The position numbers were made by a program, and so were the translations under genes. Shown piece by piece: positions 20,570-22,532 of a stretch of DNA of 22,532 nt (position 1 is its first letter; each line of letters begins with the position of its first letter). The DNA lies in IMG/VR virus record IMGVR_UViG_3300031785_000059, positions 1 through 22,532 of that record, one strand, 5' to 3'. Source of the stretch: a virus. Under the pieces are notes generated by a model that was not told the DNA's origin, ran no database searches, and was given only the letters and a program-made list of their open reading frames with translations.

Positions 20570-20788
20570 ATGATTTTTAACTTTATAAAAAAGCTAATTA
20601 AATATTATGTAGATAAATTAATTCATTGGTTGCGTATGCGAAGATTTAACTTAGAGCTAGATAATAATATAAAAAAATATCACGAAGAATTAGATAATAA
20701 AATAAAAAAACCAAAGATTATAGAAACTGGTAAATTTGGAGAAGAAGGCTGGTCTATTTCTATAGGAGATGTAAAAGATGGAGATTGA
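20570..20788 (+). CDS. Small basic protein with amphipathic N-terminal helix, function unknown
   Basis: This 72-aa protein reads MIFNFIKKLIKYYVDKLIHW, then MRRFNLELDNNIKKYHEELD and ends in SISIGDVKDGD. The first 24 residues could be a membrane-surface helix, followed by a charged helix. It is not a clear transmembrane protein. It lies right after the adhesin and overlaps the next gene, whose ribosome-binding site (TAGGAGA) is within its end. A role at the virion membrane contact or in lysis is possible, but nothing in the sequence proves either. Confidence 0.55.
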   Translation: MIFNFIKKLIKYYVDKLIHWLRMRRFNLELDNNIKKYHEELDNKIKKPKIIETGKFGEEGWSISIGDVKDGD

Positions 20789-21281
20789 ATTACCACATCT
20801 ACCAGACACAAATAATATTCTTAACCCTCCTAAAACAATTTTTTATCCCCCAATTGTGGAAGAACCTTATCTAGATCCAATTCTTCTTCCAAGTTTGGAG
20901 CAAGTTCAGTCGGGACTTCAGGAAGGCTCGGAATCTTCTGTTGAAGAAGAAAAATCATCTTCAGAGGGGATAGAGTCGCAACTAAAACAAGAAATAATAC
21001 CGCAGAACCTGCAAGCACCCAAAGAAACTTTATCATCTGAATCTGTAGCTACATTTAATTTACCGTTTTTTGGTGAAATGCCAATACCCGCCCCTGAAGT
21101 TATCGCATCAAGTGTTATAGCTGCTGGAACTGCAAGCGTTGTGAGCGTAGCAGGGGGGATTGCTGGACAGGCTGTATTAAATCAAATAAAGAAAATATTA
21201 AAAAAAATATTTACTAAAATTCTTAAAAAAGAAGTCGCAAATGTAAATGAAAAAATGACAAACAAAAAAGATAAGGTATGA
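20778..21281 (+). CDS. Proline-rich protein with hydrophobic segment and basic tail; cyanophage-like, function unknown
   Basis: This 167-aa protein starts MEIELPHLPDTNNILNPPKT with FYPPIVEEPYLDPILLP, followed by a Ser/Glu-rich region (residues 46-75). A glycine/alanine-rich hydrophobic segment (about 108-135, VIAAGTASVVSVAGGIAGQA) comes next, then a strongly basic amphipathic stretch (about 138-152, KKILKKIFTKILKK). I recall proteins with the ILNPPxxxxYPPxV start in phages of marine cyanobacteria; I do not know their job. One hydrophobic segment plus a basic tail could fit a membrane-active or holin-like protein. The ATG is preceded by AGGAGATG. Confidence 0.6.
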   Translation: MEIELPHLPDTNNILNPPKTIFYPPIVEEPYLDPILLPSLEQVQSGLQEGSESSVEEEKSSSEGIESQLKQEIIPQNLQAPKETLSSESVATFNLPFFGEMPIPAPEVIASSVIAAGTASVVSVAGGIAGQAVLNQIKKILKKIFTKILKKEVANVNEKMTNKKDKV

Positions 21282-21288
21282 TAACTAA

Positions 21289-21355
21289 TACAAAGGAAAC
21301 CCTCATCAAGCTTGGAGAAAAACCAAGCCTCTGAAATAGTGGAAAATCCTTTGTA
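21289..21355. repeat. Nine-base-pair inverted repeat enclosing a smaller hairpin
   Basis: TACAAAGGA (21289-21297) and TCCTTTGTA (21347-21355) are perfect reverse complements. Inside, GCTTGG (21310-21315) pairs with CCAAGC (21323-21328) around AGAAAAA. There is no T-run after it, so it does not look like a terminator. It could fold as a small structured RNA or as DNA structure. Confidence 0.7.
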
Positions 21356-21429
21356 CAAACACAAGTAGCTAGAGTTTACATACCTGTACTATGTGGTGTC
21401 TAAACTAGCTACTAATATTAAGTTTGTAC
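21353..21429. repeat. Long nested inverted repeat (cruciform or RNA hairpin)
   Basis: Four helices nest in order: GTACAAAC (21353-21360) with GTTTGTAC (21422-21429); AGTAGCTAG (21364-21372) with CTAGCTACT (21405-21413); TTTA (21375-21378) with TAAA (21401-21404); CATA (21379-21382) with TATG (21390-21393). The outer helix shares three bases with the preceding inverted repeat, so the two cannot both be complete. TTTGTACAAA at 21350-21359 is itself a perfect palindrome. Confidence 0.75.
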
Positions 21430-21460
21430 TTGCAATAAATTAGGGTTAACCACATACTAT
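21430..21460 (+). promoter_or_regulatory. Candidate promoter for the downstream module
   Basis: TTGCAA at 21430-21435 could be a -35 box and TACTAT at 21455-21460 (continuing into TATAAATAAG) a -10 box, spaced 19 bases apart. It begins immediately after the nested hairpin and ends 27 bases before ATG 21488, a sensible leader length. The spacing is slightly long and the region is AT-rich, so it is only a candidate. Confidence 0.35.
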
Positions 21461-21487
21461 AAATAAGAGTTACTTTACTTGCTTAAA

Positions 21488-21652
21488 ATGTCTTTTGAAG
21501 AAGAATTAGAAGCTATAGAAAGAGAAGAGTGGTTAGCACATTTTGAAGATCCACAAATATTATGGGTAACAAAAATATATCTTGATTGGCTTGTACAATT
21601 ACCTGATAATTATGTACCAAGAAAATATATAGAAATTAAATTTTTTTTATGA
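21488..21652 (+). CDS. Small acidic protein, function unknown
   Basis: This 54-aa frame reads MSFEEELEAIEREEWLAHFE, then DPQILWVTKIYLDWLVQLPD and ends PRKYIEIKFFL. It is acidic at the N-terminus, has four tryptophan/tyrosine-rich positions in the middle and looks mostly helical. Its stop overlaps the ATG of the next gene (ATGA), and the same overlap recurs through this cluster, which is good support for real translation. There is no clear ribosome-binding site ahead of its ATG. I recognise no family. Confidence 0.6.
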   Translation: MSFEEELEAIEREEWLAHFEDPQILWVTKIYLDWLVQLPDNYVPRKYIEIKFFL

Positions 21653-21963
21653 AAGCACAACCAGAACAATTATTAAAACAAATTAAAGAAGGACAAATGC
21701 AAATTAAGGCATATCAGGCTATTGTTGATGCTAAAAAAGAACTTTTAGAACAATATTTTGAAAGTGGATTAATAATGTCTAGATTTGAAATTGATGGTAT
21801 AAAGGCTACTAGAAGAAGAAAACCTGAAAAATGGCAATATACAGAAGAATTAAATAAATATAAAAAAGAAATAAATAATGCTATTGAAGATCGTGAACAG
21901 CAAGAAAGAGAAGAAGGATTAGCTACTAAAATAGATACAGGTAGTTCATGGGTTGTTAGATGA
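21649..21963 (+). CDS. Coiled-coil phage protein, function unknown
   Basis: This 104-aa protein is largely helical: PEQLLKQIKEGQMQIKAYQA, then KKELLEQYFESGLI. A short segment FEIDGIKATRRRKPEKWQYT is followed by an acidic helix (EINNAIEDREQQEREEGLAT) and SSWVVR at the end. The middle segment (IDGIKATRRRKPEKWQYTEE) has the look of a small strand pair used to bind nucleic acid or a partner. It sits in an ATGA-coupled chain of small genes leading to a nuclease, which suggests a role in replication or recombination, but no known family can be named with confidence. Confidence 0.65.
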   Translation: MKAQPEQLLKQIKEGQMQIKAYQAIVDAKKELLEQYFESGLIMSRFEIDGIKATRRRKPEKWQYTEELNKYKKEINNAIEDREQQEREEGLATKIDTGSSWVVR

Positions 21964-22229
21964 AAACATCAGAACGTGTATTAAATGCATTACAGCGTAT
22001 AAAAGAGTTGCTTATGTTAGTTTCTGATTGGTCAAAAAAAACTAAAGAAGAAGATAGACTTAACAAAGAATTTAAGGAAGCAAAACAAAAAATAATAGAT
22101 GATTTATATTTAAAATTAGGTGCTTTAAGTGATCGTTATATGTTTAACCATAAATCAGAATTTGTAACAAGAGAATATTTAATAGAATATGAGCTACTTA
22201 AAAAACAAATAAAAGAATTAGAAAAATGA
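21960..22229 (+). CDS. Helical charged protein, function unknown
   Basis: This 89-aa protein is almost entirely charged helix: MKTSERVLNALQRIKELLML, then KTKEEDRLNKEFKEAKQKII, then YLIEYELLKKQIKELEK. It has no cysteine and no membrane segment. It overlaps both the upstream and the downstream gene by ATGA. Charged coiled-coil proteins of this size often act as subunits or adaptors; nothing more specific is visible. Confidence 0.6.
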   Translation: MKTSERVLNALQRIKELLMLVSDWSKKTKEEDRLNKEFKEAKQKIIDDLYLKLGALSDRYMFNHKSEFVTREYLIEYELLKKQIKELEK

Positions 22230-22532
22230 ACCCGCAGAAGAATAAAGGGGATAGGGCAGAAAGAGAAGCATGTATATATTTAACAGCATCTACTGGTTAT
22301 ATAGTTGAGCGAAGATTTGGCGCAGGTCAGGACAAAGATAAAGGGGATCTCACAGGCATACCAGATACAGTTCTACAAGTATGCGACTATAAGAACAAAA
22401 GCGAGGCAGTATTAAAAAAACCTAGAGAGGCCGAACAACAGCGATTAAATGCAGGTGTCAAACATGCAGCTACACTTGTTAGATTTAATAAAAGGCCAAA
22501 TTGTGCAGAGGGTGATAATTGGCGTGTATGTT
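22226..22532 (+). CDS. Holliday-junction-resolvase-like nuclease (partial, runs off the window)
   Basis: The start MNPQKNKGDRAEREACIYLT is followed by STGYIVERRFGAGQDKDKGD and LTGIPDTVLQVCDYKNKSEA. This has the order of an Hjc-type PD-(D/E)xK nuclease: an early acidic residue (E12 in RAERE), the metal-binding aspartate (D41 in KGDLTGIP), then D54-x-K56 in QVCDYKNK after a strand. It would cut branched DNA intermediates during replication or recombination, before packaging. About 102 codons are present; the 3' end is outside the window. It follows the upstream gene with an ATGA overlap. Alternative: a VRR-NUC or another endonuclease of the same fold. Confidence 0.65.
   Translation, partial: MNPQKNKGDRAEREACIYLTASTGYIVERRFGAGQDKDKGDLTGIPDTVLQVCDYKNKSEAVLKKPREAEQQRLNAGVKHAATLVRFNKRPNCAEGDNWRVC

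Follow-up and report, generated by a model that had tools for sequence, protein, structure and literature searches.

Hairpin modules probably form a short non-coding RNA cassette, with its own promoter, at the end of the structural-gene block of many marine cyanophage-like viruses

What is the role of the inverted repeats that lie between the structural genes of this phage and the small genes that follow them? The DNA we analyzed (the window, a whole viral contig of 22,532 nucleotides) encodes a lambda-type terminase, a portal, a head protein, and a tape measure according to PHROGs. Marine Synechococcus siphoviruses S-CBS3 and S-CBS1 are among the best-listed relatives of the terminase (~42% identity). 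The structural block is closed by a gene for a 167-aa protein (20778 to 21281, + strand) that belongs to PHROG 9426, of unknown function, and had no match in a Pfam search. About 200 bases further on, a new run of small genes begins on the same strand, with the first start at 21488 and a RusA-like resolvase at 22226 (PHROGs). The element studied here occupies the gap between the structural block and these small (early) genes. Another IMG/VR contig (L001) reproduces the arrangement at 100%.

The original prediction for this gap was a structured non-coding element built from inverted repeats that share three bases, and the repeats are located as it described. TACAAAGGA (21289 to 21297) is repeated in inverted form as TCCTTTGTA (21347 to 21355), AGTAGCTAG (21364 to 21372) as CTAGCTACT (21405 to 21413), and GTACAAAC (21353 to 21360) as GTTTGTAC (21422 to 21429), with bases 21353 to 21355 common to the first and third repeats. 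Folding of a 151-nt segment gave −41.3 kcal/mol (z = −4.2), which none of 200 shuffles equaled. Folded singly, the hairpins closed by the first and second repeats, A and B, had z values of −4.4 and −3.2, respectively. After correction for G+C content, just 1 of 640 segments of the contig was more structured than the element. Hairpins A and B are real and far beyond chance.

Module A (21289 to 21355, + strand) consists of a P1 stem (TACAAAGGA/TCCTTTGTA), an inner core (GGAAACCCTCATC..CTCTGAAATAGTGGAAAATCC), and an apical stem (GCTTGG/CCAAGC). Its core is also found in L029/L105, L109, and L110. A is distantly related to alpha, a more common module (GGAAGCTGTAGGCA-stem-CTCTGNYCGAAGATGATCC). A covariance model (R1) was built from the alpha and beta modules of other phages, with the window copy and L109 outside the training set. 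It matched the window at 21284 to 21360 (28.7 bits, E = 0.0023) and L109 at E = 4e-6, which assigns A to a family of hairpin modules of ~40 to 70 nt in marine phage contigs. The same model found no match in the remainder of the window or in the P-SSP7 genome. An alpha module is also present in the single-cell virus AG-345-A17. A GTDB scan for the alpha core returned one Novosphingobium contig, which we took as a probable chance match.

The alpha and beta modules covary strongly. Both sides change in 10 of 20 pairs. Double-change cells number 45, whereas shuffling gave a mean of 15.6 and none of 500 shuffles reached 45. When the partners were slid by one base, the signal collapsed. In L016, neighboring copies have different P1 stems (ACAAGGG/CCCTTGT, AACAAAGG/CCTTTGTT, and ATAAGTATTGG/CCAGTACTTAT), so shared ancestry cannot by itself account for the compensation. 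The inner loops are conserved while the stems vary, which suggests that something is recognized. Window-type A itself is represented by only four distinct copies, which hardly vary. Therefore, its covariation case rests on its kinship with the alpha modules.

Module B (21364 to 21413, + strand) has a P1 stem of AGTAGCTAG/CTAGCTACT, an AG/CT helix (21373 to 21374/21400 to 21401), an apical helix of TACAT/ATGTG (21377 to 21381/21391 to 21395, + strand), and a conserved internal loop (..GTGTCTAAA). In relatives it reads GTAGCTAG-AG-..CACAT..ATGTG..CT-AAA-CTAGCTAC. The larger element had been drawn with four nested helices of 8, 9, 4, and 4 bp. Its 9-bp repeat is conserved, but the 8-bp outer helix (discussed below) and the inner 4-bp helices are not. 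The latter, TTTA/TAAA, were a single-sequence prediction and need a T that is a C in relatives, which instead back CACAT/ATGTG. Therefore, TACAT/ATGTG is the conserved apical helix. Compensated changes are present as GTAGGTAG/CTACCTAC in L062 and CACAA/TTGTG in L052, and L152 has CGCAA/TTGTG with a G.U pair. Both sides of B change in 3 of 14 pairs, and no shuffle reached its covariation score, although P1 hardly varies (one double change). Compensatory changes in relatives had been proposed as a check on the element, and both the alpha/beta modules and B have them.

To place B in its genomic setting, we fetched 80 relatives of the 167-aa gene from IMG/VR, of which 77 could be resolved at the 3′ end. 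B was at the 3′ end of the gene in 41 of these 77. In another 25 (about a third) there was no element, and a convergent gene abutted the 167-aa gene directly. The element is therefore accessory, and its dispensability makes it unlikely to be an origin, a packaging site, or an essential terminator. B is also present in 17 P-SCSP1 isolates (P-SCSP1a-u), which infect Prochlorococcus MED4 and have a 65% identical homologue of the 167-aa gene (OM416763, 32422 to 32922). That Prochlorococcus isolates share both the gene and B suggests that the host of the window's phage is cyanobacterial. The 167-aa gene thus occurs both in a siphovirus-type structural block (the window) and in T7-like podoviruses (P-SCSP1), a distribution suggesting that the gene and its RNA element have been exchanged as a unit.

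A module may stand alone or be part of a short array on one strand. Close to alpha we found beta, gamma, delta, epsilon, zeta, theta, kappa, and mu, each with its own closing stem and only a few bases from the next. Modules never flip within an array, and no array mixes strands. We counted at least 10 module types and at least 40 distinct module orders; the modules were defined by our own patterns, and their counts are lower bounds for diversity. The loci are metagenome contigs, some of them duplicate sequences under two locus numbers (e.g., L016 = L085), and the position statistics come from partly related genomes. Gamma alone is in 97 IMG/VR stretches, and the stems of gamma and epsilon show GC/AU/CG/UA exchanges. 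In epsilon modules (L201 to L219), the stem covaries (CTCTTAAC/GTTAAGGG, TTCTAAC/GTTAGAA) and the apical loop, ACTCCCTA, is C-rich and conserved; single epsilon copies are also in unrelated gene contexts (L202, L205, and L206). The cultured phage P-SCSP2 (L220, 5009 to 5163) has a gamma-like module, TAGGAACCAGACC..GAACGTCAGTTCCTA, with a large insert. That insert holds a further conserved hairpin, TGATCTCTCTTAG..CTAAGATGAACTCA, which is also in L048. BLAST searches of phage isolates with gamma and epsilon units as queries gave short chance matches only.

The paired positions also reveal the nature of the functional molecule. On the + strand, the paired cells of alpha, gamma, epsilon, and B contain 87 G.U and 10 A.C combinations; these counts are not independent, but the four families agree (alpha, 43:4; gamma, 14:6; epsilon, 23:0; B, 7:0). 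DNA hairpins alone would make A.C and G.U equally bad. Therefore, the functional molecule is an RNA of the + strand, read from left to right, as is the upstream gene.

Where might this RNA begin and end? A promoter had been predicted directly after the element, but no + strand site there passed our scan, and the strongest site is directly before it. This promoter-like site, ATGACA-16-TATGAT (21255 to 21282, + strand), overlaps the end of the 167-aa gene (its final codons and stop). It has 10 of 12 matches and is the sole + strand site with that score in a scan of 20700 to 22532. Transcription from it would start at about 21289 to 21290, the first base of hairpin A. A similar site, CTGACA-16-TATAAT or TAGAAT, precedes the first module of many arrays at the same distance. 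In L090, L094, L097, L232, and L237, and in L084/L092, a TATATT/TATAAT box is at a similar distance with unrelated upstream sequence. As for the other end, a U-tract, TACTTATTTTTTTG, closes several arrays. However, a run of six or more T's is found within 30 nt of the last module in only 24 of 119 arrays and just after B in only 3 of 63 copies, so intrinsic termination is not common to the arrays as a whole, and most of them give no defined 3′ end for the RNA. As originally noted, the window has no T-run directly past the stem of A or B. In L092 (12300 to 12560), a second promoter-like box lies past the array terminator and is followed by a structured unit, GTCGGGAAGCCTGATGATC..TCCCGATC, and a T-run. 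This unit is a second candidate non-coding RNA.

Covariation, the RNA-type strand bias, and recurrence in more than 100 loci support the predicted structured non-coding element and, among the roles proposed for it, a regulatory or small RNA. We consider it somewhat probable that A and B are two of the compact RNA hairpin modules that marine cyanophage-type phages carry, after the final late-block gene, in the form of a small non-coding RNA cassette. The RNA would most likely be a small structured one that acts in trans or as a transcript end.

The main rival has a smaller but appreciable chance of being correct. It holds that the hairpins are a cis element that ends the late operon, stopping transcription or protecting the 3′ ends of late mRNAs, and that neither a separate RNA nor a role in trans exists. 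A convergent gene follows B in 66 of 67 loci, where B lies between it and the 167-aa gene, and follows 95 of 103 arrays, which fits a 3′ untranslated region or a transcript barrier. At the B loci, the stop codons of both flanking genes are in or touching the hairpin arms, and a long U-tract ends some arrays. However, such tracts are as infrequent as described above, and a terminator would not need conserved inner loops on variable stems. A bidirectional terminator also does not explain why orientation never flips and why G.U exceeds A.C on one strand only. In addition, gene ends abut directly in the 25 relatives that have no element, and there is a promoter-like site immediately ahead of the first module.

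An improbable alternative is that A and B are the 5′ leader of the early operon, for example a riboswitch or attenuator that regulates the same-strand genes from 21488. In the window and L003, the next genes are indeed on the same strand and start ~75 nt past B, with no terminator between. However, a conserved place upstream of a same-strand gene is not what we found: with a convergent gene next in nearly all relatives (see the counts for arrays and B loci above), there is no downstream gene to regulate. Also, the early genes have their own promoter-like site past B, TTGCAA-19-TACTAT (21430 to 21460), with similar sites in L003 and L070. The arrangement in the window looks instead like loss of the convergent block. 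The minus-strand genes found past the cassette in other relatives are missing from the window (21414 to 21488) and from L003 (compare L070 and L178). Instead, B is joined directly to the early-gene leader, at what looks like a junction left by deletion or recombination. Transcription might therefore run on into the early genes in this contig. The spacer of the candidate early promoter contains a palindrome, GGTTAACC (21444 to 21451; GGGGTATACCCC in L070), which is a possible operator.

It is very unlikely that the element works as DNA, whether as a replication origin, a recombination or resolution site, or a protein-binding hairpin (all suggested originally). Its position at a module boundary, its inverted repeats, and the shuffling of modules between genomes would suit such a role, but tolerance of G.U with hardly any A.C is a one-strand RNA signature, the orientation is always the same, and 25 of 77 relatives do without it. 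Least probable of all is the proposed two-state RNA switch, in which hairpin A would compete with an 8-bp outer helix around B (21353 to 21360/21422 to 21429): the idea was fair because the alternative pairing is nearly as good in this one sequence (−40.4 versus −41.3 kcal/mol, with an outer-helix probability of ~0.34), but that pairing exists in this genome alone, and the helix is refuted as a conserved feature by L003 and L199, which keep the 3′ arm GTTTGTAC next to B but have no 5′ arm GTACAAAC, and by L070, which has the same early leader elsewhere and a changed outer-helix arm, while in L029, L109, and L110 the sequence after A differs from that of the window. A and B are two separate modules, not one switch.

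The element had been thought undescribed, and our searches agree. Rfam 15 at gathering scores gave no match in the window and nothing relevant below threshold, and 17 array- or B-bearing loci searched at E values up to 1 gave weak, unrelated, sub-threshold matches only. Low-threshold matches to DLEU2_3 and Noro_CRE were dismissed as chance, another was a tmRNA fragment, and a CPEB3-like match in L267 is >3 kb from the gamma module and on the opposite strand. A tRNA/tmRNA search found none. Consensus structures of the hammerhead, twister, hatchet, and pistol ribozymes were compared by eye; none fits, and Rfam gave them no support. A literature search found no paper describing these hairpin modules, and the text of the paper on the isolates does not mention terminators, hairpins, or intergenic or non-coding elements (PMC9860041).

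Some known systems are similar in part. Like intrinsic terminators between convergent genes, the modules are stable hairpins in a convergent gap, and some arrays end in a U-tract. Unlike them, they have conserved inner loops, a one-strand bias, a promoter-like site in front, and mostly no U-tract. Type III toxin-antitoxin RNAs (ToxI-like) are near-identical short pseudoknot repeats beside a gene for an endoribonuclease toxin. The modules resemble these in being tandem short structured RNAs in a phage-related setting, but they are diverse and their neighbors are proteins of unknown function. No adjacent toxin of the ToxN/CptN/TenpN kind was found; the neighbors tested had no Pfam match and were unknown or RusA-like in PHROGs. 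The manA, wcaG, and PhotoRC-II motifs (RF01745, RF01761, and RF01717) are structured RNAs of marine metagenomes and cyanophages that, like the modules, were found by covariation, and they are mostly 5′ untranslated region elements of metabolic or photosynthesis genes (PMC2864571). In contrast, the modules are past the last late gene, form arrays, and do not match those models. Yfr1 and Yfr2 are cyanobacterial small RNAs (PMC6778093), comparable in being small and structured and in their likely host group, but the phage modules have no Rfam match to any described family.

How might a small non-coding RNA cassette work? Transcription would begin at the first base of the first module, from a sigma-70-type promoter hidden within the final codons of the gene upstream, and in some arrays it would stop at the U-tract. 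In the window, which lacks the usual convergent gene, this RNA might also extend into the early genes. We favor a small RNA that binds a host factor; action in trans and the identity of the partner are guesses. Each module might offer a conserved motif, in an internal loop or at the apex, to a host partner (an RNA-binding protein, a nuclease, or an RNA), for which the phage RNA might be a decoy or scaffold, although our confidence in both of these steps is low. More tentatively still, marine cyanophages may draw on a common stock of interchangeable modules, alike in their rod-like build and in having internal loops longer on the 3′ strand, to build an RNA that acts in trans, and each module would bind a different host factor. 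The cassette would then be an evolving equivalent, made of RNA, of the islands of protein genes that serve host take-over or counter-defense, a doubtful but conceivable extension of the sequence comparisons.

Little is known of the non-coding RNAs of phages, and least of all for phages of the ocean's most abundant phototrophs. The locus described here, with its shuffled RNA modules, recurs in more than 100 contigs. Prochlorococcus phages in culture have it too: P-SCSP1 carries B, and P-SCSP2 carries a gamma-like module. Because cultured phages have these modules, an existing laboratory phage-host pair is suited to testing them directly.
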